Of a DNA stretch of 48,580 bases, positions 4,688 through 37,773 are shown piece after piece. A program made the position numbers and the translations under genes. Numbering within the stretch: position 1 is the stretch's first letter; every line of letters begins with the position of its first letter. Under the pieces are notes generated by a model that had not been told where the DNA came from, did no database searches, and saw nothing but the letters and a program-made list of their open reading frames with translations. This DNA comes from Verrucomicrobiota bacterium. Its GTDB lineage: Bacteria > Verrucomicrobiota > Verrucomicrobiia > Limisphaerales > VHCN01. Where the stretch lies: contig VHCN01000020.1 in the NCBI GenBank assembly GCA_016871675.1, forward strand, positions 1 to 48,580, read 5' to 3'.

Positions 4688-6214
4688 ATGAAACCAATGC
4701 CACTGACTCCCCGAATCCTCGTCGCCCTTGCCGTCTCGATGCTCGCGGCTGCCGCGCGCGCGGATGTGAAACTCCCCGCCATCTTTGGCGACCGGATGGT
4801 GCTGCAACGCGACCAGAAAGTGCCCGTGTGGGGCTGGGCCGACGAAGGCGAGAAGGTCAGCGTCGAGTTCGCGGGCCAAAGGGTCGAGGCGGTCGCGAAA
4901 GGCGGCAAGTGGTCCGTCTCGCTTGCGGCGCTCAAGGCGAGCGGCACCGGCGCGAAGTTCACCGTCACCGGCAAGAACAGGGTTGAGTTCAACGACGTGC
5001 TCGTGGGCGAGGTCTGGTTTTGCTCCGGGCAGTCGAACATGGAATGGAGCATCCGCCAGTCGAAGGACGCCGCGGCGGAAATCGCCGCCGCGAACAACCC
5101 GCTCATCCGTCATTTCAAGGTCCCGCATGTGACCGCCGACAAGCCGCAGGACGAGGTCAAGACGACGGGCGGCTGGCAGCTCACCACGCCCGAGCATGCG
5201 CCGGGCTTCACGGCGGTGGGTTACTTTTTTGGCCGCGCAATCCACAAGGAACTCGGCGTGCCCATCGGGCTGATCGGTTGCAATTGGGGCGGCACGCGCA
5301 TCGAGCCGTGGACGCCGCCGGTCGGGTTTCAATCCGTGCCCGCGCTCAAGGAAAACTTCGCGGACAAGCTCGCGAGTTTCCCCGCGAAGAACCCGGCAAA
5401 GACCAAGGACGGCAAGGACGTGCTCGACAAGGAGGGCAAGCCGGTGATGAACATCAGCAGCAGCTCGCCGCTCTCGATTTACAACGCAATGGTCCACCCG
5501 GTCATCCCCTACGGCATCCGCGGCGCGCTGTGGTATCAGGGCGAATCCAACAACGGCGAGGGCATGCTCTACTTCGAGAAGATGAAGGCGCTCATCGGCG
5601 GCTGGCGCGCGCTGTGGAAGCAGGGCGATTTCCCGTTCTACTACGTGCAACTCGCGCCGTTCCGTTACAACAACCCGGAGCGACTCCCCGGCATCTGGGA
5701 GGCGCAGACCGCCGCGCTGTCCATCCCCAACACGGGCATGGCGGTCACGACCGACATCACCACGCCATTGGACATCCATCCGCCCAACAAACAGGAAGTC
5801 GGCCGCCGCCTCGCGCTGTGGGCGCTGGCGAAGACTTACAACAAGCCCGTCGGTGCCTACGCGAGCCCGCTGTTCGACACGCTCAAAGTCGAGGGCGGCA
5901 AGGCGCGCGTGGCTTTCAAGAATGCCGACGGCGGACTCAAGTCGCGCGATGGCAAGCCGCTCTCGTGGTTCACCGTCGCGGGCGAGGACAAGAAGTTCGT
6001 CGAGGCGAAGGCGGAGATTTCCGGCAACGCGGTGGTCGTCAGCGCCGAAGGTGTCGCCAGGCCCGTGGCCGTGCGCTTCGGCTGGCACGAACTCGCCGAG
6101 CCCAATCTCTCCAACGGCGCCGGATTGCCCGCGTCGCCCTTCCGCACGGACAAGTGGGCCGACGCCGTGATGCCCGCGCCGTCGGCGCTGCCCGCCGCGC
6201 CTGCGAAGAAGTAG
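4688..6214 (+). CDS. Secreted sialate O-acetylesterase (SGNH-type, SASA domain)
   Basis: 508 residues with an N-terminal signal peptide ending near ARA, then the form usual in PVC and Bacteroidetes glycan-degradation genes: an N-terminal beta domain (LPAIFGDRMVLQR, VPVWGWA) and the SASA hydrolase domain. The nucleophile elbow is FCSGQSNMEW at about residue 117, the middle block is ALWYQGESNN, and the Asp/His pair lies in DIHPPNKQEVGRRLALWAL. It removes O-acetyl groups from sialic acids or other acetylated glycans, exported to the periplasm or surface. A sialidase lies some 8 kb downstream, consistent with a sialoglycan diet. The gene stands alone and converges on the methyltransferase gene. 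Confidence 0.93.
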   Translation: MKPMPLTPRILVALAVSMLAAAARADVKLPAIFGDRMVLQRDQKVPVWGWADEGEKVSVEFAGQRVEAVAKGGKWSVSLAALKASGTGAKFTVTGKNRVEFNDVLVGEVWFCSGQSNMEWSIRQSKDAAAEIAAANNPLIRHFKVPHVTADKPQDEVKTTGGWQLTTPEHAPGFTAVGYFFGRAIHKELGVPIGLIGCNWGGTRIEPWTPPVGFQSVPALKENFADKLASFPAKNPAKTKDGKDVLDKEGKPVMNISSSSPLSIYNAMVHPVIPYGIRGALWYQGESNNGEGMLYFEKMKALIGGWRALWKQGDFPFYYVQLAPFRYNNPERLPGIWEAQTAALSIPNTGMAVTTDITTPLDIHPPNKQEVGRRLALWALAKTYNKPVGAYASPLFDTLKVEGGKARVAFKNADGGLKSRDGKPLSWFTVAGEDKKFVEAKAEISGNAVVVSAEGVARPVAVRFGWHELAEPNLSNGAGLPASPFRTDKWADAVMPAPSALPAAPAKK

Positions 6215-6242
6215 CGGCCCGGCACCGGTCCGCGCCGCCGCT

Positions 6243-7472
6243 TCACGCGCGCCGCAGGTAGATGCACTTCAAGTAGTGCGCCTCGGGGAAGGCTGGCGCG
6301 TGGTCCGCCGGATGAAACGTGGTGGCAATCTCCACGAACCCGCCGGCCGGACGCCGCGTCGCGTGGCGCACGATTCCGAAGAACTCCTCCGCGGGCATGT
6401 GGGCCGAGCACGATGCCGCCACCAACACTCCGCCGGGACGCAACAGCCGCGAGCCTTCCGAGGCGAGCCGCGTGTAGGCGCCGGTGGCCGCCGGCTTGTC
6501 CGCCGCGCGCCGCGCGAGCGTCGGCGGGTCGAGGATGACCAGGTCAAAGGACTCGCTTCGCGCCGCGCCGAGCCACTCAAACGCATCCGCCTGCACCGGC
6601 TCGTGCCGGCACGCAGCGACCTCCGGCACGTCGCGGTTCAACTCGAAATTCCGCCGGGCCGAGTCGAGCGCGTGCGCGCTGATGTCGAGGTCGGTGACGC
6701 TCCGCGCGCCGCCGCGCGCCGCGTGCAGCGAAAAGCCGCCGGAGAAGCTGAACGCGTTCAACACGTCGCGCCCGCGTGCGAGTGTGCCGGCGCGCACGCG
6801 GTTCTCGCGCTGGTCGAGGAAGAAGCCGGTCTTCTGTCCGCGGACGATTTCCGCCTCGAACGTCAACCCGTGCTCCAGGAACACCACCGGGCCGCCGGGC
6901 GGGCTGCCGCGAAGGATGCGTCCGTCTTCGAGACCAAACTCCCGTGACGCCACGTCCTGCATGTTGCGGCTGAGCCGCAGCACGACGCGAACCGAGGGGA
7001 GGGCGCCGCCGAGGAGTGCGGTCAATTCCCCGAGCCCCGGCAGCCAGGCGGCGGTGTAAAGCTTGAGCACGAGCGAGTCGCCGTAACGGTCGAGCACAAG
7101 TCCCGGCCAGCCGTCATTTTCGCCGTGAATCCAGCGCCAGCCGGTCGTGCTGGCGTCGAAAAGGGGCCGGCGTTTCGCGAGCGCGGACTCGAGGCGCGCG
7201 GCCCACCACGCGCGGTCGGCGTTGGCGGGTTTGCCGGCGTGGAGCACGCGCACGCGGATCGGCGAGTGCGGGTCGAACAAACCGAGCGCGAGAAAGCGGT
7301 CGCGACGGTCGAAGATGACCGCGAGCTCGCCCGCGCGGCCGGGGCGGTTTTGCTCGCGGATGCTTTGGTCGAAGACCCACGGGTGGCCCTGCCGGATGGT
7401 GTTCTCGGCGGCGGCGGTGAGGCGGAGTCGCAGCCGCGGTTGGGCGGGCTGGGCTGCGATGGATTCCGTCAC
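6243..7472 (-). CDS. Class I SAM-dependent rRNA methyltransferase, RlmI/RlmK-like (PUA plus Rossmann)
   Basis: 409 residues. The N-terminal PUA-like domain ([31 protein letters not shown]) is followed by the central domain and a Rossmann methyltransferase with motif [19 protein letters not shown], the acidic VTDLDIS strand and motif [10 protein letters not shown]. RlmI-type enzymes make 5-methylcytosine in 23S rRNA, and related members modify other positions; the precise target here is inference. Length and domain order match the family. It is the last gene of a minus-strand group and lies 84 bases after the flippase-like gene. Confidence 0.88.

Positions 7473-15690: not shown

Positions 15691-15694
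<4 letters not shown>
14357..15694 (-). CDS. Secreted sialidase / neuraminidase-like BNR protein
   Basis: Up to 445 residues. The exo-alpha-sialidase signature YRIPGIV (the RIP arginine motif) is followed by four Asp-box-like turns (STNNGASW, TDDDGVTW, SDDLGRTW, SYDEATTW), giving the six-bladed propeller of the family. It would release terminal sialic acid, or a related sugar, from glycans outside the cytoplasm. The longest start is a GTG at 15694 that overlaps the stop of the DUF1501 gene (GTGA); a second GTG at 15619 would give a more normal signal peptide (core LLIVAFLLTAAPF), so the true start is uncertain. Confidence 0.88.
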
Positions 15695-17136
<1,442 letters not shown>

Positions 17137-17200
17137 CGTGGACCCTTGGTAATCCGCCACGCGCGGAATGGCAAGGGCGGCGGATGCTCACCGCTGCCTT

Positions 17201-19471: not shown

Positions 19472-21130
19472 ATGATCCCGCCTGAATTGCTCGCGCGACT
19501 GGAGCCGGTGGCGCGTCGCCATCGCCGGCTGCAACTGCGGCGGGAACTCGCGCTTTGCTACGGCATCGCGGCCATCGCGGGCCTCGGGCTCATCGGCCTG
19601 CACGGGCTCACGGGCTTCTGGTCCACGGCGCTGGTGCGGCTGCTCGGCGCCGCGGCGTTCGCGGCCGCGATCTTTGTATGGTGGCGCTGGCGTCAGCAAC
19701 CCGTGGACTGGCATTGGGTCGCAGGCGAGATCGAGGCGCGCCACCCGGAGTTGAACACGCTCCTGCTCGCCGCGCTCGAGCAGCAGCCGCAACCGGACGG
19801 CAGCTTCAACTTCCTCCAGCAACGCGTCGTCTCCCAGGCGCTTGAGCACAGCCGGAAAAAACGGTGGACCGACGGCGTGCCCGGCGGCCAGCTCGTGCGC
19901 GCGCAGGCGGTTCACCTCGGCACGCTCGCGTGCCTGCTGCTCGTGGTGTTTGGCCTGCGCAGTTCCGCCGAGAAAGCCGCGGTGCAAAAGGCCATCGAGG
20001 CCGTCGGCGTGCAAATCACCCCCGGCGACGCATCGCTCGAAAAAGGCCAGTCGCTCATCATCTTCGCGCGCTTCGCCGGCCCGCTGCCCGCGGGCGTGGA
20101 TCTCGTGCTCGCCGGCACGCCTGACGGCGGGCGCACCCAGCCGCTCGTCAAGAGCCTCGATGATCCCGTCTTTGGCGGCAGCGTGTCCGAGGCGCAATCC
20201 GACTTCACGTATCGCATCGAATACTCCGGCCAGCGCTCGCGCGATTTCAAGGTGAAGGTCTTCGAGCATCCGAAACTCGAACGCGCCGACGCCGACCTCG
20301 CGTATCCGGCCTACACGGGACTGCCTGCGCGCCGGATTGAAAACACCAGGCGCCTCACCGCGGTCGAGGGCACGAAGGTCCAGCTCGCGTTTCAGTTCAA
20401 CAAGCCCGTCGCGCGGGCGCAACTCGTCGCGCGGGACCAGTCCGCCATCCCGCTCGACATCGTGACCAACAGGCCCGCCGCGTTGCTGAAGGACTTTGCG
20501 ATCGAGGAGAGCAAAACCTACGACCTGCAACTGGTGGACGCCGACGGCCGCACGAACAAGGTGCCGGCGCACTTCGTCTTCGAGGCGCTCAAGAACCGCC
20601 AGCCCGAGCTCAAGCTCACCGCGCCGCGCGGCGACCAGCGCGTCTCGGCGATCGAGGAGATCACCTTCAGCGGCGAGGCGTGGGACGACTTCGGGCTGCG
20701 CGCCTACGGGCTCGGCTTCATGATCGGCGGAGGCGATGCGCAGTTCATGCAACTCGGCGACGACGCCAGGCCGGGCGAGAAGCGGCCGTTCTCCCACGTG
20801 CTGCCGCTCGAGCCGATGCGGCTCGCGCCCGACGAACTCATCGCCTACTTCATCTGGGCCGACGACACCGGGCCCGACGGCGAGGTCCGCCGCACCGCAA
20901 GCGACATGTATTTCGCCGAGGTGCGGCCATTCGAGGAGATTTTCCGCGAAGCCGCGGGCGGCGACCAGGACCAGCAACCGCAACAACAACAGCAGGGCCA
21001 GCCACAGGGCGGGCAAGGGGAGCGCCTCGCCGAACTGCAGAAGCAGATCATCAGCGCGACCTGGAAACTCCAGCGCCAGGCCGCGGGCATCAAAGCTCCG
21101 GCCGCGAAGGGAAAGTCCTCGTTTGAATAG
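19472..21130 (+). CDS. DUF4175-like membrane protein, N-terminal half
   Basis: 552 residues. The N-terminus has two membrane helices at about 28-45 and 54-72 and a third at 147-162, followed by a long extracytoplasmic part of beta-rich repeats (PGDASLEKGQSLIIFARFAG, YPAYTGLPARRIENTRRL, the VEGTKVQLAFQFNKPV block, and an FSGEAWDDFGLRAYGL domain). The C-terminus is Gln/Gly-rich and ends LAELQKQIISATWKLQRQAAG. This layout is that of the first half of DUF4175-type proteins of PVC and alphaproteobacterial envelopes, function unknown. The ORF ends at a TAG and the next gene, which looks like the second half, resumes 33 bases later in the same frame. Start at ATG 19472 (MIPPELLARLEPV); an ATG at 19424 gives a His/Lys-rich extension. 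Confidence 0.82.
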   Translation: MIPPELLARLEPVARRHRRLQLRRELALCYGIAAIAGLGLIGLHGLTGFWSTALVRLLGAAAFAAAIFVWWRWRQQPVDWHWVAGEIEARHPELNTLLLAALEQQPQPDGSFNFLQQRVVSQALEHSRKKRWTDGVPGGQLVRAQAVHLGTLACLLLVVFGLRSSAEKAAVQKAIEAVGVQITPGDASLEKGQSLIIFARFAGPLPAGVDLVLAGTPDGGRTQPLVKSLDDPVFGGSVSEAQSDFTYRIEYSGQRSRDFKVKVFEHPKLERADADLAYPAYTGLPARRIENTRRLTAVEGTKVQLAFQFNKPVARAQLVARDQSAIPLDIVTNRPAALLKDFAIEESKTYDLQLVDADGRTNKVPAHFVFEALKNRQPELKLTAPRGDQRVSAIEEITFSGEAWDDFGLRAYGLGFMIGGGDAQFMQLGDDARPGEKRPFSHVLPLEPMRLAPDELIAYFIWADDTGPDGEVRRTASDMYFAEVRPFEEIFREAAGGDQDQQPQQQQQGQPQGGQGERLAELQKQIISATWKLQRQAAGIKAPAAKGKSSFE

Positions 21131-21163
21131 CGACCGCGACGCCTTACACACTCACCACAAGCC

Positions 21164-23530
21164 ATGAAACCACGCCTGCTCGCCATCGCGCTCACGAGCG
21201 CAGTCTTCGCCACCGCTGTCGTCGTCGCGCAGGAGCGCCGCGCCGCGCCGCCCACGAGACCCTCGCCCGCCGTAAAGCCCACCGGCAATTACAAGGAGGA
21301 CGCCGCCGTCGTCCACGAGGCGCAGCAGAAGGCCCTCGAATTGGCGCAGGTCCTCGCGGGAAAGGCGCAGGACCCCAAGGCGCAGGCCGCCGTCAGCGCC
21401 GCCATCGCCGAGATGGAGCGCGCCATCAAGCTGCTCGACGAGGCCAAGGACAATCCGACGAAGCTCACCGCAGCCGTCGCCGCCGAGCAGGCCGCGTATG
21501 CGCACCTGCTCAAGCTCGCCCCGCGCGAAATCAACGTCTCGCAAAAGAAAGGCCAGAAGGGCCAGCAAAGCGGCAGCCAGCAATCCCGCCAGCGCCAGCT
21601 CGACCAGCTCGACCTCAAGATGAGCGAGAACAAATACGAGCAGCAACGCCTCGCGCAGGACGCCAAGCAATCGCCCGAGCAGCGCGAGCAGTTGCAGGTG
21701 CTCAACCGCCTGCAGGAACTCGCGCGCCGCCAGCAGGACTTGAACGAGCGGCTCAAGGAACTCCAGACCGCGTTGCAAGAGGCCAAGTCCGAGCAGGAGA
21801 CGGAGGACATCCGCCGCCGGCTCAAGCGCCTCCAGGAGGAGGAGCAGAAGATGCTCGCCGACGTGGATGAACTCCGCCAGCGCATGGACCGGCAGGAAAA
21901 CCAGTCCAAGATGCAGCAGGAGAGCAAGCAACTCGACCAGACGCGGCAGGACGTGCAGCGCGCCGCCGAGGCCATGCAGAAGGGCAACGTGCAACAGGCG
22001 CTCGCCTCCGGCACACGCGCCGAGCGCGACCTCGAGAAGATGCGCGACGAGATGCGGAAGAAAACTTCCAACGCCTTCTCCGAGGAGATGCGCCAGATGC
22101 GCCTTGAGGCCCGCGAGCTCGCGCAAAAGCAGGAGCAAATCGGCCGGCAACTCGACCAGCTCACCGACAACAACCGCAGGAAATCCCTCACCGACACCGG
22201 CGAGAAACAGGAGCTCGTGAAACAATTCCAGGAACAGAAACAGCACCTCACAAACCTCGTGGACCGCGCGAAGGAAATCAGCGAGCGCGCCGAGCAGGCC
22301 GAGCCGCTCCTCCACAAGCAGCTTTACGACGCCGTCCGCAAGAACGCCCAGGCCGACGCCGCGAACCTTCGCGGCATGACCGAGGAACTCCTGCAACGCG
22401 GCAAGATGCTCCGGCCCGTTTACGAACTGCTCGAGAAGAACAAGAACACCGAGCCGGGCACCGGGCTCGAGATCGCCGCCGAGTTGATGAAGAACGGTTT
22501 CCTGCCCGAGACAAAGAACATCGAGGAGCGCAGCCGGCGGAGCATTGACGAGTTCAAGCGCGGCGTGGAGCGCGCCGCCGAGAGCGTGCTCGGCGACGAA
22601 GCCGAGGCCCTCCGCATGGCCCGCAAGGAAGTCGAGGCCCTCGCAGAAGCCGTCCGGCGCGAACTGGCGCAGGCCGAGCCGCAAGGCGAAGAGGCGCAGG
22701 CCGGCAAGCCGCCGGGCAAACAGGCGGGCCAGCCGTCCGAGTCCGGGCCGAAAGGCCAGCCCGGCGGGAAATCCGGCGAACCCAAACCCGGCGCGGGCAA
22801 GCCGGGCGAACCGAAGCAAGGCGAAGGCAAACAGGCCGACCCGAAACAGGGTGAAGGCAAACAAGGCGACGGTCAGCCCGGTGAGCCGCAGCCCGGCCAG
22901 GGAAATCAGGGGCAGGGGAAGCAAGGCGAGGGCAAGCAGGGCGATCCCCAGGCACAGAACAACAATCCGCAAGACGGCAAACAGGCCGGGCGCCAGCCCG
23001 GTCAGCAGCCGGGCGAGAACGCGGGCAAGCAAGGCGGCAAGAGTGGAAAAGAGGCGGGCCAGCCGAACCCGGACGGTTCACGCGACCGCGCCGACCTTCA
23101 GAATCGCGTCCGCAACGGTGGCGACGGCGGCGGCGCGAGGCGGACGGGCGGCTTCGACGAGTGGCTCGGCAACCGGCCGGTGTTTCCCGGGCCCATCCGC
23201 GGCGAAGATTATCTGCAGTGGAGCGACCGCCTTCGCGACGTGGAGGAAATGATCGAACTGCCCGACCTGCGCCTCGACGTGCAGCGCGTTCGCGAGGAAG
23301 CGCGCCGCTTGCGTCAGGAAGCGCGCCAGGAACCCACCAAGCCTGACTGGGTGCAGATCCGCACCAAGATCGTCGCGCCGCTCGCCGAGGTGAGCAAGCG
23401 CCTCGGCGACGAGATCGCGAAGCGCGAGTCGAAGGAGGCGCTGGTGCCGATTGACCGCGACCCCGTGCCCGGCAAGTTCGGCGAGTTGGTGCGCCGCTAT
23501 TACGAGGAGTTGGGCAGGAGCAAGAACTGA
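21164..23530 (+). CDS. DUF4175-like C-terminal half: secreted coiled-coil protein with Lys/Gly/Gln-rich region
   Basis: 788 residues. A signal peptide (MKPRLLAIALTSAVFATAVVVAQ) leads into a helical region (NYKEDAAVVHEAQQKALELAQ...) and a long Gln/Glu/Arg coiled coil to about residue 500. Residues 505-645 are low-complexity, built of PGEPKQGEGKQ-like units. The last 150 residues return to a conserved-looking domain (EDYLQWSDRLRDVEEMIELPDLR, then RREARRLR-type helices, ending DRDPVPGKFGELVRRYYEELG). That ending is typical of DUF4175-like proteins of PVC bacteria. The upstream gene supplies the membrane half. No Shine-Dalgarno is visible before the ATG. Likely periplasmic and possibly peptidoglycan- or envelope-linked; function unknown. 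Confidence 0.85.
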   Translation: MKPRLLAIALTSAVFATAVVVAQERRAAPPTRPSPAVKPTGNYKEDAAVVHEAQQKALELAQVLAGKAQDPKAQAAVSAAIAEMERAIKLLDEAKDNPTKLTAAVAAEQAAYAHLLKLAPREINVSQKKGQKGQQSGSQQSRQRQLDQLDLKMSENKYEQQRLAQDAKQSPEQREQLQVLNRLQELARRQQDLNERLKELQTALQEAKSEQETEDIRRRLKRLQEEEQKMLADVDELRQRMDRQENQSKMQQESKQLDQTRQDVQRAAEAMQKGNVQQALASGTRAERDLEKMRDEMRKKTSNAFSEEMRQMRLEARELAQKQEQIGRQLDQLTDNNRRKSLTDTGEKQELVKQFQEQKQHLTNLVDRAKEISERAEQAEPLLHKQLYDAVRKNAQADAANLRGMTEELLQRGKMLRPVYELLEKNKNTEPGTGLEIAAELMKNGFLPETKNIEERSRRSIDEFKRGVERAAESVLGDEAEALRMARKEVEALAEAVRRELAQAEPQGEEAQAGKPPGKQAGQPSESGPKGQPGGKSGEPKPGAGKPGEPKQGEGKQADPKQGEGKQGDGQPGEPQPGQGNQGQGKQGEGKQGDPQAQNNNPQDGKQAGRQPGQQPGENAGKQGGKSGKEAGQPNPDGSRDRADLQNRVRNGGDGGGARRTGGFDEWLGNRPVFPGPIRGEDYLQWSDRLRDVEEMIELPDLRLDVQRVREEARRLRQEARQEPTKPDWVQIRTKIVAPLAEVSKRLGDEIAKRESKEALVPIDRDPVPGKFGELVRRYYEELGRSKN

Positions 23531-23602
23531 GGCGGTTGCTGCGCGAAGCTTCCAACCGTGGCCGGTTGACCGGCGGCGCCTTTGAACGACACTCTGCCCG
23601 CG

Positions 23603-25975
23603 ATGTTCGCCTCCATCATCTTTGCCAACCGCGACTGGCTCGCGCCCGTGGGCGTCACGCTCGCGGTGGCGCTGGTTTTTCTCGTGCGCGGCTACCGCGT
23701 GTCAGGAGCGGAGCCGTCGGTCCGCGGACTGTGTTTCGCGTTGAAGCTCCTCGGCCTCGTGGCGCTCGGCCTCTGCCTGCTTGAGCCGCATTGGAGCGGC
23801 GAGCGCGCGCGGCCCGGCGCGAATCACTTCGTCATCCTCGCCGACAACAGCCAGGGCATGCAGATCAAGGACCGCGACGCGACCGAGACACGCGCCGATT
23901 CGCTGCGCAAGCTGCTCAAGTCCGACCAGGCCGCGTGGCAGTCCAGGCTCGACGAGCACTTTCAGGTGGCGCGTTACGTGTTCGACTCGCGGTTGGTCAG
24001 CACCAAGGACTTTTCCGAGCTGAACTTCGACGGCCGGGCCTCGGCCCTCGGCGCGGCGCTGCGGGGCGTGAAGGAACGCTTCGGCAACCGCCCCATCGCC
24101 GGCGTGCTGCTGCTCACCGATGGCAACGCAACGGACATCTCCGAGGCGCCGCCCGGGCTTGCGGGCGTGCCCGTCTTCCCCGTCGTCATGGGAGAGAACG
24201 CGCCCATCCGCGACCTCGCGGTCCAGAAGGTCGCCGTGAGCCAGACCGTGTTCGAGGACGCGCCGGTCAACGTGCAGGCGGACGTGCTCGCCACGGGCTA
24301 CAACGGCTACGAAATCGTCGCGCAGATGCTCGACCGCACCGGGAAGAAGATCGAGGAGCAGGCGCTCAAGTCGCAGCGCGACTCGGACCCGCTCGCGTTT
24401 CGATTCCAGTTCAAGCCCGACAAGCCGGGGCTTTCCTTCTACCGGCTGCGCGTCTCGGCGAAGAACGAGCTTGAGCAGTTTGGCAACGCGGCGCTCTCCA
24501 CCGAGGCGACGCTCGCGAACAATGCGCGCGTCGTCGTGGTGGACCGCGGCCGCGGGCCGTATCGCATCCTCTACATCGCGGGCCGGCCGAATTGGGAGTT
24601 CAAGTTTCTCAACCGGGCGCTGGCGGAGGATGACCAGGTGCATCTCGTCGCGCTGATCCGCGTGGCGAAGCGCGAGCCGAAGTTCGAGTTCAAGGGCCGC
24701 GTGGGCGAGTCGAGCAACCCGCTCTTCCGCGGGTTTGGCAACCAGAACCCCGAGGAGATCCAGCGCTACGACCAGCCCGTGCTCGTGCGCCTCAACACGC
24801 GCGACCAGGAGGAGCTGCGCGGCGGCTTTCCCACTTCGCCCGAGGAACTCTATGCGTATCACGCGGTGATCATCGATGACTGCGAGGCGGAGTTCTTCAA
24901 GCCCGACCAGCAGTCGCTGCTCCAGCGCTACGTGTCCGAGCGCGGCGGCGGGCTTCTCATGCTCGGCGGCGCGGAGTGCTTCCACCAGGGCAAGTATGCG
25001 CGCACGCCCATCGGCGACATGCTGCCCGTCTACCTCGACCGCAACACGGAGAACTCGGCGCCGCAGCAGGGCTACACCTTCTCGCTCTCGCGCGAGGGCA
25101 TGTTGCAGCCGTGGTCGCGCGTGCGGGCGAACGAAGCCGACGAAAGGCGCCGCGTCGAGGCGATGCCGAAGTTCGACGTGCTCAACCAGGTGAAGGAAGT
25201 GAAGCCGGGCGCGAGCGTGCTCGCCACGGTGAACGACGGCCGCAGGGAGTATCCCGCGCTTGTCACGCAGCGCTTCGGCCACGGCCGCACCGCGGCGCTC
25301 CTCATCGGCGACCTCTGGCAGTGGGGCATGCACGATGCCGAGTCGCACAAGGACATGGACAAGTCGTGGCGCCAGACCATCCGCTGGCTCGTGTCCGACG
25401 TGCCCAACCGCATCGAGCTGGCGACCGAGGCGCAGCGCGGCGATGCGAATCAGGCCATGTTGCTGAATGTCCGCGTGCGCGATGAGAAATTCCAGCCGAT
25501 GGACAACGCGTCCGTCGTGCTGCGCGTGCAACCGCTCGCCGCCGACGCGAAGGCCGGGGCGGAGACGAATTTCATCCGCCTCAACGCCGAGCCCGCCACG
25601 AGCGAGCCGGGGCTGTATCAGGCCACCTACGTCCCGCGCGAAACCGGCGGCTACCAGGTCACCGCGTTTGTCACCAACGCCATCGGCGCCGAGGTCGCGC
25701 GCGCCGAGGCCGGCTGGAGCACGGACCTTGCGGCCGAGGAATTCAAATCGCTCAAGCCGAACCGCCCCCTGCTCGAGGCCATCGCGAAAAAATCGGGAGG
25801 CGAGCTGCTCACGCCCGCGCGGCTGGATGACTTCGCGCGCGCGCTGCCGAACCGCCGCGCGCCGGTGACCGAGGCGTGGACGTATCCGCTCTGGCACACG
25901 CCGCTCGTGTTCCTGTTCGCGCTGTTGTGCTTCGTCGCCGAGTGGGGACTGCGCCGGTGGAAAGGAATGGCGTGA
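23603..25975 (+). CDS. Membrane VWA / glutamine-amidotransferase-like protein
   Basis: 790 residues from the ATG at 23603 (an ATG at 23582 is also in frame). Two membrane helices at the N-terminus (WLAPVGVTLAVALVFLV and LKLLGLVALGLCLL) precede a von Willebrand A domain whose MIDAS starts VILADNSQGM and includes LLLTDGNATD. A beta region and then a class I glutamine-amidotransferase-like domain follow (YHAVIIDDCEAEFF, ERGGGLLMLGGAECFHQGKYARTPIGDMLPVYL), then beta domains, and a C-terminal helix (HTPLVFLFALLCFVAEWGL). This architecture is common in PVC and Bacteroidetes aerotolerance-type (Bat/MoxR) loci, but the MoxR and DUF58 partners are absent here. It starts 72 bases after the DUF4175-like gene and overlaps the next gene. 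Confidence 0.9.
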   Translation: MFASIIFANRDWLAPVGVTLAVALVFLVRGYRVSGAEPSVRGLCFALKLLGLVALGLCLLEPHWSGERARPGANHFVILADNSQGMQIKDRDATETRADSLRKLLKSDQAAWQSRLDEHFQVARYVFDSRLVSTKDFSELNFDGRASALGAALRGVKERFGNRPIAGVLLLTDGNATDISEAPPGLAGVPVFPVVMGENAPIRDLAVQKVAVSQTVFEDAPVNVQADVLATGYNGYEIVAQMLDRTGKKIEEQALKSQRDSDPLAFRFQFKPDKPGLSFYRLRVSAKNELEQFGNAALSTEATLANNARVVVVDRGRGPYRILYIAGRPNWEFKFLNRALAEDDQVHLVALIRVAKREPKFEFKGRVGESSNPLFRGFGNQNPEEIQRYDQPVLVRLNTRDQEELRGGFPTSPEELYAYHAVIIDDCEAEFFKPDQQSLLQRYVSERGGGLLMLGGAECFHQGKYARTPIGDMLPVYLDRNTENSAPQQGYTFSLSREGMLQPWSRVRANEADERRRVEAMPKFDVLNQVKEVKPGASVLATVNDGRREYPALVTQRFGHGRTAALLIGDLWQWGMHDAESHKDMDKSWRQTIRWLVSDVPNRIELATEAQRGDANQAMLLNVRVRDEKFQPMDNASVVLRVQPLAADAKAGAETNFIRLNAEPATSEPGLYQATYVPRETGGYQVTAFVTNAIGAEVARAEAGWSTDLAAEEFKSLKPNRPLLEAIAKKSGGELLTPARLDDFARALPNRRAPVTEAWTYPLWHTPLVFLFALLCFVAEWGLRRWKGMA

Positions 25976-25977
25976 GG

Positions 25978-26940
25978 ATGGCCGCGGCCCCCTTCGTGGC
26001 GCTGCTCGCGGCGGCCACCTGTGCCGCCGCCGCGGTGGCGCCGCAGCAGGCGAACCCCACGGTCATCGTCGCCGTCGGCGCCGCGGGCGAGGAGGAATTC
26101 GGGAATCAGTTCGGGCAGTGGGCGGCCAACTGGTCGAAGGCCGCGCGCGAGGCCGGCGCGAAGTTCATCGGCATCGGCCCCGGCACCTCGGCCTCGACCA
26201 ACGATCTGGCGCTGCTCAAGTCCGCGATCGAAAGCGAGCCCGTGGACGGCCCGGCCGAGTTGTGGCTCGTGCTGCTCGGCCACGGCACGTTCGACAGCAA
26301 GGACGCCAAGTTCAACCTCACCGGTCCCGACCTCGCGGCGACGGACCTCGCCGCGTGGCTCAAGCCGGTCAAGCGGCCCGTCGCAGTCATCAATGCGTCG
26401 TCGGCGAGCGCGCCGTTCATGTCGAAGCTCGCCGCGCCCGGTCGCGTCGTCATCACCGCCACGCGCAGCGGGAACGAGGTGAACTTCGCACGCTTCGGGC
26501 GGCATCTCGGCGAGGCGATGCTCGACGCGCAGGCGGACTTGGACAAGGACGGGCAGACCTCGCTGCTCGAGGCGTTCCTGCTCGCGTCGAGCCGCACGGC
26601 CGAGTTCTACAAGTCCGAGGGCCGCCTCGCCACCGAGCACGCGCTGCTCGACGACAACGGCGACGGGCTCGGCACGCCGGGCGACTGGTTTCGCGGCGTG
26701 CGCGCGGTGAAGAAGGCGAGCGACGGTGCGGCGCTCGACGGGTTGCGCGCGCACCAGTTTCACCTCGTGCGCAGCGCGAAGGAACGGCAGATGCCACCGG
26801 CGTTGCGGATGAAACGCGACGCGCTCGAATTGCAGGTTGCGAAATTGCGCGAGTCCCGCCAGGGCGCGGGCGACGAGGATTACTTCAAGCAGCTTGAGGC
26901 CGTCCTGCTCGAACTGGCGCGACTCTACGAGAAGCAGTAG
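25978..26940 (+). CDS. Secreted caspase/legumain-like (C13/C14 fold) protein, probably catalytically inactive
   Basis: 320 residues from ATG 25978; a GTG at 25972 overlaps the previous stop (GTGA) and is a possible alternative. After a signal peptide come a VIVAVGAAGEEEFGNQF strand and helix, then ELWLVLLGHGTFDSKDAKFNL with the dyad-type His102, and VAVINASSASAPFMSKL where a caspase-fold protease would have its Cys; no cysteine is present near it (NASSASAPF, 139-147). An EF-hand-like loop DLDKDGQTSLLE follows at 187-198 and a second Asp/Gly-rich loop LDDNGDGLGTPGDW at 224-237. The C-terminus is helical (PPALRMKRDALELQVAKL). Probably a periplasmic binding or regulatory protein of the cassette; assignment to the fold is from motif spacing, not from a search. 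Confidence 0.78.
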   Translation: MAAAPFVALLAAATCAAAAVAPQQANPTVIVAVGAAGEEEFGNQFGQWAANWSKAAREAGAKFIGIGPGTSASTNDLALLKSAIESEPVDGPAELWLVLLGHGTFDSKDAKFNLTGPDLAATDLAAWLKPVKRPVAVINASSASAPFMSKLAAPGRVVITATRSGNEVNFARFGRHLGEAMLDAQADLDKDGQTSLLEAFLLASSRTAEFYKSEGRLATEHALLDDNGDGLGTPGDWFRGVRAVKKASDGAALDGLRAHQFHLVRSAKERQMPPALRMKRDALELQVAKLRESRQGAGDEDYFKQLEAVLLELARLYEKQ

Positions 26941-28955: not shown

Positions 28956-29549
28956 ATGAAACTGATCCATCGCCTCTCCCTCGCCGCTTCAGTCCTCCTT
29001 GTGGCTGCTTCCGCGCGGGCCGACTACGTTGTCACATTCTTCAACTTCAACGCCGGTAATTCGCTCCTTGGTGTCGTGTATGACACGGGTGGCGTGACTC
29101 CCCTCGGCTCGGGGTTCTCGGCGCAGATTTATGCGGGAGCGAGCGCCGGCTCACTCGCAGCCATCGGGTCGCGTGCCAATTTTATCGACGGCACGGGCAT
29201 CATTAACGCGGGGGATGTTTCCGTCACGAGCGCCTCGCTCAACGCCGGCTCCTTGGGTGCGTATCAACTGAAAGCTTGGGACAATGTTGGTGGGACCATT
29301 ACTTCCTACGAAGCTGCAGTCGCGGCGGGCCGCAAGGTTGGCGAGTCGGCGATTGTCGGGTTGGGCGGAACCGTCCAGACTTCCGGTTTCGTCTTGGGAG
29401 GAACTATTCCCGGAACACCTCCGACTGTGGTTACCGCGACTGTGAACCTCCACCCGTCATTTTCCGTCGCACTTGTTCCCGAGCCCGGTCTCATGACGCT
29501 TGGGTTGCTCGGTGCCGCGGGATTGTTCCTGCGCCGTCGTCGCGACTAG
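28956..29549 (+). CDS. PEP-CTERM sorting-domain protein
   Basis: 197 residues. An N-terminal signal peptide (MKLIHRLSLAASVLLVAASARA) precedes a Gly/Ser/Ala/Thr-rich extracellular domain with beta-strand character. The C-terminus is a textbook PEP-CTERM anchor: VPEPG, a membrane stretch (LMTLGLLGAAGLFL) and the basic tail RRRRD, which the exosortase/EpsH system would recognise and cleave. The exosortase itself is not in the window. The coding sequence is noticeably lower in GC than its neighbours. It probably shares the transcript with the preceding secreted protein and ends at the hairpin just downstream. Confidence 0.9.
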   Translation: MKLIHRLSLAASVLLVAASARADYVVTFFNFNAGNSLLGVVYDTGGVTPLGSGFSAQIYAGASAGSLAAIGSRANFIDGTGIINAGDVSVTSASLNAGSLGAYQLKAWDNVGGTITSYEAAVAAGRKVGESAIVGLGGTVQTSGFVLGGTIPGTPPTVVTATVNLHPSFSVALVPEPGLMTLGLLGAAGLFLRRRRD

Positions 29550-29653: not shown

Positions 29654-29728
29654 GGCCTGTTCGTCTATCGGCTAGGACACGGCCCTCTCAAGGCTGAAAG
29701 ATGGGTTCGATTCCCATACGGGCTACCA
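29654..29728 (+). tRNA. tRNA-Glu, anticodon CUC
   Basis: 75 bases including an encoded CCA. The acceptor arm pairs GGCCTGT with ACGGGCT (two G-U pairs). The anticodon stem CGGCC/GGCTG closes the loop CTCTCAA, giving anticodon CTC for GAG. The T arm is ATGGG-TTCGATT-CCCAT with the invariant TTCGA. The D arm holds TAGGAC. All features agree with a normal bacterial glutamate tRNA, and a consensus -35 lies 43 bases upstream. Confidence 0.96.
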
Positions 29729-30847: not shown

Positions 30848-31027
30848 TCGCTTTTGCGCGCGGAAAATATCAACGCCTCCCGGCAGTGTCAACGTGCCGG
30901 CGGAGCGCGCGAATTCCCTGTTCCACGCCGCGCCGGGGTGTGCTATGAACAATCACCAAACCGGCTAGAATTCCGATTGGCGCACGGGCGTCTTTTCTTG
31001 GCTGTTCACCGGAGTGACATTGAACTT

Positions 31028-34000
31028 ATGAAGCTCGCACCATTTGCAATCCTGCTCGCCGCCATGGCCGCCACGGCCCCGGCCTTCGGCGCGCCCGCGA
31101 AGAAGGAAGCCGCCAAGAAGGTCAGCTATTACAAGGAGGTCCGCCCCGTGTTCCAGGCCAACTGCCAGGGCTGTCACCAGCCGGCCAAGGTCAAGGGCAG
31201 TTACGTGATGACGGACTTCAAGAAACTGCTTGCCGGCGGCGAGTCCAGGCTCGCGGCCATCGTCGCGAAATCGCCGGACAAGTCGAACCTCCTTAAGCTC
31301 ATCACGCCCGTGGAAGGCAAGGCCGAGATGCCCGAGGGCAGGAAGCCGCTGCACGCCGCCGAGATCGAGCTCATCCGCAACTGGATTGCGCAGGGCGCAG
31401 TGGACGACACGCCCGCGAACGCGAAAGAGCGTTACGACGCAAATCATCCGCCCGTGTATTCCCTGCCGCCGGTGATCACCTCCCTCGACTACTCCGCGGA
31501 CGGCCAGTTGCTCGCGGTGCCGGGGTTCCACGAAGTGCTCCTTCACAAGGCCGACGGCTCCGGACTCGTCGCCCGGCTCGTCGGCTTGAGCGAGCGCATC
31601 GAGTCCGTGCGCTTTTCCCCCGACGGCACGAAGCTCGCCGTTGCCGGTGGATTGCCCGGCCGCATGGGCGAGGTGCAGGTGTGGGACGTGGAAAAGCGCA
31701 AGCTGCTCCTCTCGGTGCCCGTCACTTACGACACCGTTTATGGCGCGAACTGGTCGCCCGACGGCAAGCTCATCGCCTTCGGCTGCGGCGACAACTCCGT
31801 CCGCGCCATCGAAAGCGACACGGGCAAGGAAGTTGTCTTTCAAGGCGCGCACAGCGACTGGGTGCTCGACACCACGTTCAACGCCAAAGGCGACCACATC
31901 ATCTCCGTGAGCCGCGACATGACCTCGAAGCTCACCGAGGTCGCCACGCAGCGGTTCATTGACAACATCACGAGCATCACGCCCAACGCCCTCAAGGGCG
32001 GCATCCACGCCGTCGCGCATCACCCCAGGCGCGAGGAAATCGTCTTCGGCGGCTCCGACGGCATCGCGAAGGTTTACCAGATCTTTCGCACCACCGCGCG
32101 GCAGATTGGCGATGACTCCAATGGCATCTTCCCGCTCGAGCCGATGCTCGGCCGCGTTTACTCGGTCGTGTTCAGCCGCGATGGCAGCGTGATCGCCGCG
32201 GGCTCCGCGCTCGACGGCAAGGGCGACGTATTCGCCACCACCTACACCAGCAGCACCAACCCCATCACCACCGACATGGCGAACGTGATGAAGAAGATTC
32301 CCGCGAGCCGCAATGCGCAGGACCAGGCCGCCATCGCCAAATACAAGGACAGCATCGCGAAGAAACTCTTCAAGACCCCGGTGGACGCGGGCGTGTTCGC
32401 CGTGGCGATTTCGCCGGACAACAAGACCACCGCCGCCGCCGGCTCCGACGGTGTCGTGCGCCTGTTCAACACAGCCGACGGCTCGCGCAAGGGCGAGTTC
32501 CTCTCCGTGAAAGTCAGCGAAGCCACGAAGGCGCTCGCGGTGAAGAAGTTCGAGCCCGACGCCGCGCCCGCCACCGCAAAGACCGAGGCCGGGCAGGAGA
32601 AACTTCCCCCCGGCGTGAAAGTGATCGCGCTCGAAGCCGAGCCCAAGACCCTCGCGATCGCGAAATGGACCGACAGCGCGCAGGTGCTCATCTCCGCGCG
32701 GCTCAGCAACGGCGAAACGGTGGACGTGACGCGCATCGCGAAGCTCGACATCGGCAGCTCGCGCACGGCCGACGTCACGGCGACGGGCGTTGTCCGCGCC
32801 AAGTCCAACGGCTCCACATCCGTCAAGGCCAGCCTCGGCGGCAAGAGCGTCAGCATCCCGGTCAAAGTTTCCGGAATCGAGAGACAACTCGACACCGACT
32901 TCATCCGCGACGTGAACCCCGTGCTCACCAAAGCCGGGTGCAACCAAGGCACCTGTCACGGCTCCAAGGAAGGCAAGAACGGCTTCAAACTCTCGCTCCG
33001 TGGCTACGACGCGAACTACGACGTCCGCGCGTTCACCGACGAACTCGCCTCGCGCCGCGCCAACGTCGCCTCGCCCGACGACTCGCTGATGCTGCTCAAA
33101 CCCACCGCCGCCGTGCCGCACGTCGGCGCGAAGGTCATCGAACCCGGCGACCTCAACTACCGCATCATCCGCGAATGGATCGGCGCCGGCGCGAAGCTCG
33201 ACGAGCAGTCCGCGCGCGTCGCGAAGATCGAGCTCTCCCCTCAAAACCCCGTCGTGCAGCGCGTCGGCTCGCGCCAGCAGATGCGGGTGGTGGCCACTTA
33301 TGCCGACGGCTCGACGCGCGACGTGACGACCCTCGCCTTCGTCGAGAGCAGCAATCAGGACATCGCCAAGGCCGACGCGCACGGCGTGGTCAGCACGCTG
33401 CGCCGGGGCGAGGCCGCGATGCTCGCGCGCTTCGAGGGCGCCTACGCCGCGACGACCGTGACCGTGATGGGCGACCGCGACGGCTTCGCGTGGAGCGAGC
33501 CCGAGAAATGGAACAAGATTGACGAACTGACCGCCGCGAAGTGGCTGCGGATGAAGATCCAGCCGAGCGGGCTTTGCACCGACGACGAGTTCATCCGCCG
33601 CGTGTATCTCGACCTCACCGGCGTGCCGCCCGGCGCGGACGAGGTGAGGGCCTTCCTCGCCGACACGCGCCCGACCCGCGAGAAGCGAGACGCGCTCGTG
33701 GACAGGCTCGTCGGCGGAGACGACTACGTGGACCACTGGTCCAACAAGTGGGCCGACCTCTTGCAGGTGAACTCGAAGTTCCTCGGCGCGGAGGGCGCGA
33801 AGGCCTTCCGCGACTGGATTCGCAACGAAGTCGCGAAGAACACGCCCTACGACGAATTCGCGCGCAAAGTCATCACCGCAAGCGGCTCCAACAAGGACAA
33901 CCCGCCCGCGAGCTACTACAAGATTCTCCGCAAGCCCGAGGACATCATGGAGAACACGACGCACCTGTTCCTCGCCACGCGCTTCAACTGCAACAAGTGC

Positions 34001-36154
34001 CACGACCATCCGTTCGAGCGTTGGACGCAGGACCAGTATTACCAGACCGCCGCCTACTTCGCGCAAGTCGGGCTGAAGAAGGACCCCGCCGCGGGAGACA
34101 GGCAGATAGGCGGCACGGCGGTCGAGGGCGGCAAGCCGCTCTATGAAATCGTCGAGGACTCCACCAGCGGCGAAGTGAAACACGAGCGCACCGGCAAGGA
34201 AACGCCGCCGCAGTTCCCGTATCCCGCCACGTGCGGCCCCGGGGCAAAGGCCGAGAAAAAGCCGTCGCGTCGCGAACAGCTCGCCGCGTGGATCACCGCG
34301 AAGGACAACCGCTACTTCGCCACCAGCTTCGCCAACCGCATCTGGGGCTACCTCACCGGCGTCGGCATCATCGAACCGCTCGACGACATCCGCGCGGGCA
34401 ACCCGCCAAGCAATCCCGAACTGCTCGACTACCTCACGCAGGAGTTCCTCAAGAGCGGATTCGACACGCGTCACTTGATGAAGCTCATCACCAAGTCGCG
34501 CACCTACCAACTCTCGGTCGTGACACACAAGTGGAACGCCGACGACAAGGTCAACTTCAGCCACGCCACCGCGCGACGCCTGCCGGCCGAGGTGCTTTTC
34601 GACAGCATCTACAAGGTCACCGGCGCGAAGTCGAACATCCCGGGCGTGCCCGCTGGAACGCGCGCCGCCGCGCTGGCGGACGCGGTGAAACTACCCGACG
34701 GCTTCTTCGCGACCATGGGCAAGCCGCCGCGCGAATCCGCGTGCGAGTGCGAACGCTCGAGCGACATCCAGCTCGGGCCCGTGATGGCGCTCATCTCCGG
34801 CGCGACCGTCGGCGACGCCGTGAGCGCCGCGGACAATGCCATCGCCAAGCTTGTCGCCGATGTGAAGGACGACCGCGCGCTCATCCACGAGGTATTCCTG
34901 CGTGTGCTCAACCGACCCGCGAAGCCCGGCGAAATTGACGCGACACTCAAGAACTGGTCGCTCATCAAGCCCGACCACGAGCGTGTGACCAAGGAGCTCT
35001 CCGCCTACGAGCAGGTCTTCCCCGGCCTCCAGAAGAAGCGCGAGACGCAACGCGCCACCGACCTTGCCGATGCCAAGGTGGACCTCGCGGACTACGAAAA
35101 GGAGATCGCCCCGCGCGAGGCGAAGCTCGATCAGGAACAAAAGGAGCGCGTCGCGAAGGCCGAGGCGGAGTTGAAGCGCTTTAACGAGCAGGATTTTCCG
35201 AAGCGCGCGGTCGAGTTCGAGAAGAAGCAGGACCTCAAGGTCGCGTGGAAGGCCATCGCCGCGAAGTCCGCCAAGTCCACCGGCGACCTCAAGCTCAAGC
35301 AAGAGGACGACAAATCCATTGTCGTCACCGAAGGCAAGATTCCGCGCGCGGTTTACACCGTCACGTCGGACGCGCAACCCGGCGTGCTCGCGGCGCTGCG
35401 CGTCGAGGCGCTCGCGGACAAGAAGTTCCCCAAGGGCGGCCCCGGTCGCGCGCCGGACGGCAACTTTGTGCTCAATGAAATCGCCGTGACGTTCGCGCCG
35501 ACAGGCGGCAAGCCGGAGGACACGAAGAAGCTCGACCTCACCAAGGCGCTTGCGGATTTCAGCCAGGAGAACTTCGAGGTCGCCAAGTCCATCGACGGGC
35601 AGAACAACCGGCAGACCGGCTGGGCCATCGCGCCCAACGGCGGCTCGACCCACTGGGCGACCTACGAATTGAAGACGCCGCTGACGAATACGGCGGGCGG
35701 CACGCTGACCTTCACGCTCACGCAGCAGTTCAACGGAGGCGAGGAAAAGGGCTACACGCTCGGTCGCTTCCGGATCTCAACCACGGATGCGAAGACGCCC
35801 GGCTTGAGCCAGTCCGAGGAACTGCGCGCCATTCTCGTGGTCGCGCCCGATGCGCGCGCCAAGGAGCAGAAGGACGCGCTGGAGAAATTCGTGCGCGGCA
35901 GCGATCCCGAACTCGCCAAGCGCAACAAGGAACTCGCCGAAGCGAAGAAGCCGCGGCCGATTGATCCGCTCTTGAAGGAACTGCAGGACTCCGTGAAGCG
36001 CCTCGCCGAACCGCTGTCGCCCGATCCGAAGCTCGCGCAACTCAAGCGCGCCTCCGAGCTCAGCACCAAGCACGTCGAGCAGCAGCGCCTCATCGGCGCG
36101 CAGGACCTCGCGTGGGCGCTCATCAACAACCCGGCGTTCCTGTTTAACCGGTGA
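31028..36154 (+). CDS. Giant exported cytochrome / WD40 / Ig-like / DUF1549-DUF1553 fusion protein
   Basis: 1,708 residues; signal peptide (MKLAPFAILLAAMAATAPAFG). Order: PVC-type cytochrome c domain with CQGCH at 46-50; a WD40-like propeller to about 510; an Ig/BIG2-like domain (530-615); a second cytochrome-like domain with CNQGTCH from C638 (spacing CX4CH, unusual); another BIG2-like domain (732-815); DUF1549 from about 838 (DDEFIRRVYLDLTGVPP) including CNKCHDHPF at 988; then DUF1553 from about 1079 (SFANRIWGYLTGVGI). DUF1553 is split: a coiled coil and a beta domain of about 370 residues intervene before its usual closing motif LIGAQDLAWALINNPAFLFNR. Probably periplasmic and electron-transfer linked. 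DUF1501 follows 155 bases downstream. Confidence 0.93.
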   Translation: MKLAPFAILLAAMAATAPAFGAPAKKEAAKKVSYYKEVRPVFQANCQGCHQPAKVKGSYVMTDFKKLLAGGESRLAAIVAKSPDKSNLLKLITPVEGKAEMPEGRKPLHAAEIELIRNWIAQGAVDDTPANAKERYDANHPPVYSLPPVITSLDYSADGQLLAVPGFHEVLLHKADGSGLVARLVGLSERIESVRFSPDGTKLAVAGGLPGRMGEVQVWDVEKRKLLLSVPVTYDTVYGANWSPDGKLIAFGCGDNSVRAIESDTGKEVVFQGAHSDWVLDTTFNAKGDHIISVSRDMTSKLTEVATQRFIDNITSITPNALKGGIHAVAHHPRREEIVFGGSDGIAKVYQIFRTTARQIGDDSNGIFPLEPMLGRVYSVVFSRDGSVIAAGSALDGKGDVFATTYTSSTNPITTDMANVMKKIPASRNAQDQAAIAKYKDSIAKKLFKTPVDAGVFAVAISPDNKTTAAAGSDGVVRLFNTADGSRKGEFLSVKVSEATKALAVKKFEPDAAPATAKTEAGQEKLPPGVKVIALEAEPKTLAIAKWTDSAQVLISARLSNGETVDVTRIAKLDIGSSRTADVTATGVVRAKSNGSTSVKASLGGKSVSIPVKVSGIERQLDTDFIRDVNPVLTKAGCNQGTCHGSKEGKNGFKLSLRGYDANYDVRAFTDELASRRANVASPDDSLMLLKPTAAVPHVGAKVIEPGDLNYRIIREWIGAGAKLDEQSARVAKIELSPQNPVVQRVGSRQQMRVVATYADGSTRDVTTLAFVESSNQDIAKADAHGVVSTLRRGEAAMLARFEGAYAATTVTVMGDRDGFAWSEPEKWNKIDELTAAKWLRMKIQPSGLCTDDEFIRRVYLDLTGVPPGADEVRAFLADTRPTREKRDALVDRLVGGDDYVDHWSNKWADLLQVNSKFLGAEGAKAFRDWIRNEVAKNTPYDEFARKVITASGSNKDNPPASYYKILRKPEDIMENTTHLFLATRFNCNKCHDHPFERWTQDQYYQTAAYFAQVGLKKDPAAGDRQIGGTAVEGGKPLYEIVEDSTSGEVKHERTGKETPPQFPYPATCGPGAKAEKKPSRREQLAAWITAKDNRYFATSFANRIWGYLTGVGIIEPLDDIRAGNPPSNPELLDYLTQEFLKSGFDTRHLMKLITKSRTYQLSVVTHKWNADDKVNFSHATARRLPAEVLFDSIYKVTGAKSNIPGVPAGTRAAALADAVKLPDGFFATMGKPPRESACECERSSDIQLGPVMALISGATVGDAVSAADNAIAKLVADVKDDRALIHEVFLRVLNRPAKPGEIDATLKNWSLIKPDHERVTKELSAYEQVFPGLQKKRETQRATDLADAKVDLADYEKEIAPREAKLDQEQKERVAKAEAELKRFNEQDFPKRAVEFEKKQDLKVAWKAIAAKSAKSTGDLKLKQEDDKSIVVTEGKIPRAVYTVTSDAQPGVLAALRVEALADKKFPKGGPGRAPDGNFVLNEIAVTFAPTGGKPEDTKKLDLTKALADFSQENFEVAKSIDGQNNRQTGWAIAPNGGSTHWATYELKTPLTNTAGGTLTFTLTQQFNGGEEKGYTLGRFRISTTDAKTPGLSQSEELRAILVVAPDARAKEQKDALEKFVRGSDPELAKRNKELAEAKKPRPIDPLLKELQDSVKRLAEPLSPDPKLAQLKRASELSTKHVEQQRLIGAQDLAWALINNPAFLFNR

Positions 36155-36309: not shown

Positions 36310-37773
<1,464 letters not shown>

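Follow-up and report, generated by a model that had tools for sequence, protein, structure and literature searches.

A predicted secreted pseudo-caspase encoded with a MoxR-DUF58-BatA-type operon of Verrucomicrobiota and Planctomycetota

The window analyzed here, meaning the whole stretch of 48,580 nt, is contig C20 (48.6 kb) of a 97% complete, 3.61-Mb draft genome of a Verrucomicrobiota bacterium. Four genes lie head to tail within it (Table 1), with 33 bases between ORF1 and ORF2 and 72 bases between ORF2 and ORF3. At the third junction, a GTG start for ORF4 at 25972 overlaps the TGA stop of ORF3 (GTGA), and an ATG at 25978 lies two bases past that stop; the coordinates thus confirmed the arrangement described in the initial annotation. 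Across the four-gene region, terminator-like sites were no more frequent than in shuffled sequences (8 versus 7.7), and a sigma-70-like promoter was looked for and none seen. Orthologs of ORF3 and ORF4, at approximately 37 to 66% identity, occurred in around 30 genomes of the same order, and both are therefore real genes rather than chance ORFs. Neither ORF2 nor ORF4 matched a Pfam or NCBIfam family above cut-off. Elsewhere in the window, a very large protein of a kind typical of the group precedes the second of two DUF1501 genes, and a tRNA-Glu gene follows a small PEP-CTERM-like protein.

Table 1. Features of the window, with positions counted from its first nucleotide
Feature	Position	Strand	Length	Description
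DUF1501 gene	15691-17160	-		DUF1501
ORF1	19472-21130	+	552 aa	N-terminal part of DUF4175
ORF2	21164-23530	+	788 aa	C-terminal part of DUF4175
ORF3	23603-25975	+	790 aa	GATase-like membrane protein
ORF4	25972 (GTG) or 25978 (ATG) to 26940	+	322/320 aa	Putatively secreted pseudo-caspase/legumain-like protein
Small secreted protein	28956-29549	+		Weak PEP-CTERM tail, below cut-off
tRNA gene	29654-29728	+		tRNA-Glu
Very large protein	30923-36151	+		Planctomycete-type cytochrome (PSCyt1), WD40 repeats, PSCyt2 (DUF1549), PSD1 (DUF1553)
DUF1501 gene	36310-37773	+		DUF1501

ORF1 and ORF2 are most likely a single DUF4175 gene that has been split. In 44 of 53 testable loci an open frame runs through both, which are thus one fused gene there, and in the other nine a stop separates them; what was first described as a DUF4175-like pair would accordingly be one gene. 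ORF1 itself scored 17.2 bits against DUF4175 (PF13779; E 0.0014), below the gathering cut-off of 27.3 bits, and had no match to TIGR02302 in NCBIfam; 21 of its 33 relatives matched DUF4175 at E up to 0.01, the best at 5e-8. Its approximately three transmembrane helices are followed by beta-sandwich (Ig-like) domains at residues ~180 to 485 and then by the start of a helix. The AlphaFold2 model (pLDDT 79.7) likewise has N-terminal helices and a beta-rich region at 181 to 485, with Ig-like structural matches of middling Z (~10). ORF2 comprises an N-terminal hydrophobic, signal-like segment, a long coiled coil rich in E, Q, K, and R, a G/P/Q-rich linker, and a C-terminal region. Possession of its own signal-like segment fits a periplasmic location for the coiled coil.

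In ORF3, two N-terminal transmembrane helices precede a VWA-like segment, a GATase1_like domain (residues 408 to 597), an Ig-like segment, and a C-terminal transmembrane helix. The initial description of ORF3 as a VWA/amidotransferase-like protein was well founded for the second module, with PF07090 (GATase1_like) matching ORF3 at 2.4e-11 (44.1 bits, cut-off 27) and all 24 aligned orthologs at E up to 0.01. Amidotransferase activity is nevertheless unlikely, given that most of 67 sequences have Ser (52) at the nucleophile elbow (position 459), where Cys would be expected, the others having Cys (7), Thr (5), Ala (2), or Met (1). The first module was less clear-cut: no Pfam VWA match was obtained at E 0.01 among 24 family members. 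MIDAS-like motifs are conserved (D81-x-S83-x-G/S, S/T147, and D173), and hhalign aligned the segment weakly with BatA (probability 25%, E 7.6e-4); together, these suggest that ORF3 probably contains a VWA domain.

ORF4 begins with a signal-like segment and is putatively secreted. Searching the PDB by sequence with an ORF4 profile gave no match, hence the need for a fold search. Window ORF4 also had no match in Pfam, and five of 30 relatives gave a weak Peptidase_C13 match. The AlphaFold2 model, built with 45 sequences (pLDDT 87, pTM 0.86), most closely resembled legumains (Z 19.2, rmsd 2.4 Å over 191 residues, model residues 26 to 267), with metacaspases, GPI transamidase, and caspases ranking next, and the top Foldseek matches (caspases, MALT1, and legumain) fell in the same superfamily. 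On the model, ORF4 thus has the caspase-hemoglobinase fold of clan CD (legumain C13/caspase C14), bearing out the fold first proposed from sequence. The histidine of its GHG motif (His102, numbered from the ATG) is invariant in both of our alignments. The nucleophile position was mapped, using sequence and secondary structure, to Ser142 (also numbered from the ATG). This residue belongs to an A-S-x-S-A/G motif, similar to ACxSG of legumain, located directly after the strand at 135 to 141. Across 75 aligned rows, drawn from two alignments that share some genomes, this position was occupied by Ser in 68 and otherwise by Ala, Gly, or Pro, never by Cys. ORF4 therefore looks to lack the His-Cys catalytic dyad and is predicted to be a catalytically dead caspase-like protein. 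It also has a strongly conserved EF-hand-like DLDKDGQTSLLE loop.

To place the four genes in context, we searched for ORF3 and ORF4 in 58 genomes representing as many families of the same order, and used the ORF4 alignment to scan the species genomes of GTDB. ORF4 was present in 31 of the 58 genomes, and 30 of those 31 also encoded an ORF3 ortholog or close fragment. The wider scan returned at least 504 relatives, and neighborhoods were taken from the best 80 of these, whose records were titled Verrucomicrobiota or Planctomycetota barring a few metagenome bins. Three near-verrucomicrobial loci (L106, L107, and L128) titled Akkermansia muciniphila, Klebsiella pneumoniae, or Proteobacteria look like bin naming errors. 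Counting among these best 80 of at least 504 relatives only loci with enough upstream DNA, ORF3 immediately preceded ORF4 in 65 of 67, ORF2 was found upstream in 52 of 58, ORF1 in 50 of 54, BatA in 47 of 54, and DUF58 in 44 of 53, and MoxR was found in most loci that extended far enough to reach it. A TPR/Peptidase_MA (metallopeptidase-like) protein and DUF4159 often precede MoxR, giving the order TPR/Peptidase_MA-DUF4159-MoxR-DUF58-BatA-DUF4175 (ORF1+ORF2)-ORF3-ORF4; the same synteny was seen in 13 large loci of the order. As in a Bat-type operon, relatives encode MoxR (AAA_3), DUF58, and BatA (N-terminal and VWA domains) together. The neighborhood search suggested in the initial annotation thus uncovered conserved synteny in two phyla, Verrucomicrobiota and Planctomycetota, with co-occurrence that was close to complete for ORF3 and ORF4. 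The proposal of a conserved gene set with a predicted envelope location and a pseudo-caspase was upheld, and its supposed self-containment was not: the four window genes correspond to the 3' portion of a more extensive MoxR-DUF58-BatA-DUF4175-GATase-pseudo-caspase operon. A stand-alone cassette was rejected, with MoxR-DUF58-BatA directly upstream in relatives and retained elsewhere in this genome.

The absence of Bat/MoxR partners, noted at the outset, holds in the window and not in the genome, where the operon exists in three pieces, all retained, on contigs C5, C46, and C20. On C5 the gene order is TPR/Peptidase_MA-DUF4159-DUF4159-MoxR (locus L094; the tandem DUF4159 genes at 5414-7285 lie ahead of MoxR, and the relatives read have one). 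The genome carries seven strong MoxR genes outside C20. The MoxR on C5 is 74 to 77% identical to the operon MoxR, and other MoxR genes of the genome reach at most 55%. C46 carries the DUF58 and BatA orthologs together; DUF58 scored 565 bits (next paralog, 295) and BatA 982 bits (next paralog, 174). Pfam bore out the families of these C5 and C46 genes, with matches to AAA_3 at 2e-62, DUF58 at 2.6e-50, and BatA at 2.8e-16. An assembly break is an unlikely cause of the split, since none of the three pieces lies at a contig end (ORF1 to ORF4 occupy 19.5 to 26.9 kb of the 48.6-kb C20), and in another genome (G020) the pieces are separated by ~310 kb on one contig. ORF3-ORF4 was likewise separated from the remaining operon in G026, G036, G040, and G044, as in G020, and in G051 ORF1 to ORF4 were split from DUF58-BatA, as in the window's own genome; the break points differ among genomes. 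Presence of ORF4 agreed with that of ORF3 in 57 of 58 genomes (Fisher p ~1e-15) and with that of BatA in 53 of 58 (Fisher p 7e-11), both tests using one genome per family and ignoring kinship. That the parts scatter yet stay co-retained suggests a functional link among them, rather than mere operon inertia.

A profile search of 288 genomes of the phylum also recovered weaker relatives of ORF4. Seven of the eight such loci that were read adjoin MoxR, DUF58, BatA, DUF4175, or ORF3 homologs of other, divergent operons. This is not attributable to chance, for which a rough estimate from MoxR density is ~5 to 10% per locus. These distant pseudo-caspases lack the Cys, and some also lack the His, having LLGTS or IYGDA in place of GHG. 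At three loci (L238, L239, and L241), the pseudo-caspase is joined to further domains in proteins of ~710 to 745 aa encoded beside MoxR-DUF58-BatA, and the two of these that were scanned (L239 and L241) matched DUF3857 and gave a weaker match to a transglutaminase core. In these bacteria, pseudo-caspases thus seem to accompany MoxR-DUF58-BatA operons repeatedly.

The Bat (aerotolerance) operon encodes MoxR, DUF58, and BatA/BatB/BatC/BatD. The operon described here likewise runs from the MoxR AAA+ ATPase through the DUF58 VWA protein to the BatA-type membrane VWA protein. It differs in that DUF4175, the GATase-like membrane protein, the putatively secreted pseudo-caspase, and the TPR/Peptidase_MA protein replace partners of the BatB-E type, and we know of no description of these four as Bat components. 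Alphaproteobacteria carrying the TIGR02302 family have MoxR-DUF58 operons with DUF4159, DUF4175, and a GATase-like membrane protein, in which, to our knowledge, there is no pseudo-caspase; unlike that family, window ORF1 has no TIGR02302 match. RavA-ViaA and NorQ-NorD resemble the present set in the principle that a MoxR hexamer works together with a VWA partner on a membrane-complex client (PMC13036017; for RavA-ViaA, also PMC10585395); however, each consists of two cytosolic proteins whose clients are known, whereas here a multi-protein membrane/periplasmic arm is predicted from the genes. Cyanobacterial pseudo-orthocaspases (Tyr-Ser for His-Cys) also combine a caspase fold with Ser in place of the nucleophile, yet in ORF4 the His is kept and the protein is putatively secreted and operon-bound. 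The main text of a survey of pseudo-orthocaspases makes no mention of planctomycetes or verrucomicrobia (PMC6426788). In the open-access literature we found no description of the pseudo-caspase-bearing version of the operon, and whole-word searches of 5.39 million open-access papers returned DUF4175 in one and DUF4159 in none. With both domains almost unmentioned, the system appears undescribed in that literature, as initially supposed; it is nonetheless a variant of known MoxR/VWA (Bat-type) operons and not a categorically new system. MoxR-DUF58-BatA operons themselves are already known as Bat, without an agreed function.

Taking these data together, we tentatively favor, with confidence a little short of even, the view that these genes specify the part of a MoxR/VWA envelope chaperone machine that lies in the membrane and periplasm, and that a pseudo-protease would serve in it as a recognition or scaffold subunit. 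This view draws on computed gene linkage, membrane and secretion signals, predicted folds, and catalytic-residue loss. In such a machine the proteins would form a complex, transmit force, and bind a client. By analogy with RavA-ViaA and NorQ-NorD, a MoxR hexamer and the cytosolic VWA protein DUF58 would drive ATP-dependent remodeling of the membrane VWA proteins BatA and ORF3. DUF4175, with three transmembrane helices, Ig-like domains, and a long coiled coil, would carry the movement or span the periplasm as a strut. ORF4 would offer a peptide-binding fold that does not cut, a role suggested by its modeled structure, and might either recognize the client or scaffold the complex. The outcome would be the folding, cofactor loading, or assembly of some envelope protein or complex. 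MoxR/VWA pairs do remodel membrane-complex clients (PMC13036017). Leptospira biflexa strains with bat deletions, however, showed no phenotype when tested for growth, morphology, and oxidative stress (PMC3557215), and assembly clients of Bat-type operons are therefore hypothetical.

Phyletic profiles were also scrutinized for a client. Exosortase was uninformative because it occurs in 54 of the 58 genomes of the order; the window's own genome encodes one on contig C10. Copies of DUF1501, counted up to ~26 per genome, were far more numerous in system-bearing genomes (rank test p 7e-5; 58 genomes). Given this ceiling on the counts, and the equally marked difference in genome size, which is likewise larger in system-bearing genomes (p 5e-5), we do not claim DUF1501 as a client, and its association with the system may be indirect.

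Operon linkage alone can outlast physical interaction, and it is quite conceivable, although we think it somewhat less probable than the machine, that this is an ordinary Bat-type MoxR/VWA operon whose parts are co-inherited and co-expressed, the pseudo-caspase being a separate periplasmic binding protein that forms no complex with MoxR. Such a reading would accommodate the ORF3-ORF4 pairing that survives scattering in five genomes, where the tightest unit may be ORF3-ORF4 alone. It would also accommodate the paralogous MoxR operons on contigs C82, C1, and C13 of the window's own genome, in the examined stretches of which a profile search found no pseudo-caspase. (The operon on C82, locus L089, encodes MoxR, DUF58, BatA, GATase-like, and DUF4175-like proteins near the contig end.) It accounts less readily for the co-occurrence of BatA and ORF4 even where the two are unlinked, and for the distant pseudo-caspases that adjoin other MoxR-DUF58-BatA operons.

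That ORF4 is instead an active Ser-His dyad hydrolase, with a caspase/legumain fold in which serine is the nucleophile, and that the operon encodes a regulated envelope protease, we consider unlikely. Its invariant His102, the predominance of Ser in a context resembling ACxSG, and legumains as its best structural neighbors are what such an enzyme would display. However, mutation of Cys to Ser is known to abolish activity in clan CD enzymes, the Ser is itself replaced by Ala, Gly, or Pro in other rows, and remoter relatives have lost the nucleophile position and in some cases the His. It is very improbable that the operon is an immune (conflict) system of the MoxR-vWA kind, whether VMAP or related, in which a caspase is the effector. 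Ternary systems whose neighborhoods combine caspase domains with MoxR and vWA do exist, also in planctomycetes (PMC7159879). Their effector caspases have variable domains, whereas here the caspase-like fold is constant (53 to 67% identity to window ORF4 among relatives in two phyla), putatively secreted, and without a nucleophile. PADLOC gave no more than marginal matches for seven components, and no VMAP-like or iSTAND-like gene was recognized among conserved neighbors, which were read without a VMAP profile.

Returning to the envelope chaperone machine, its pseudo-caspase may have a more general role. It is possible, if rather doubtful, that the MoxR-DUF58-BatA envelope machines of Verrucomicrobiota and Planctomycetota generally include a secreted pseudo-caspase as a subunit. 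A dead clan CD protease, which in one branch carries a transglutaminase-like fusion, would then recognize peptides for an assembly chaperone that spans the envelope and is driven by ATP. The extracytoplasmic role of Bat-type MoxR/VWA operons is a long-standing gap. A constant, well-conserved periplasmic set that includes a nucleophile-less caspase-like protein would make the periplasmic output of the machine testable via a single secreted protein. These data also suggest that bacteria use caspase-fold proteins for roles other than cleavage beyond the cyanobacterial cases.
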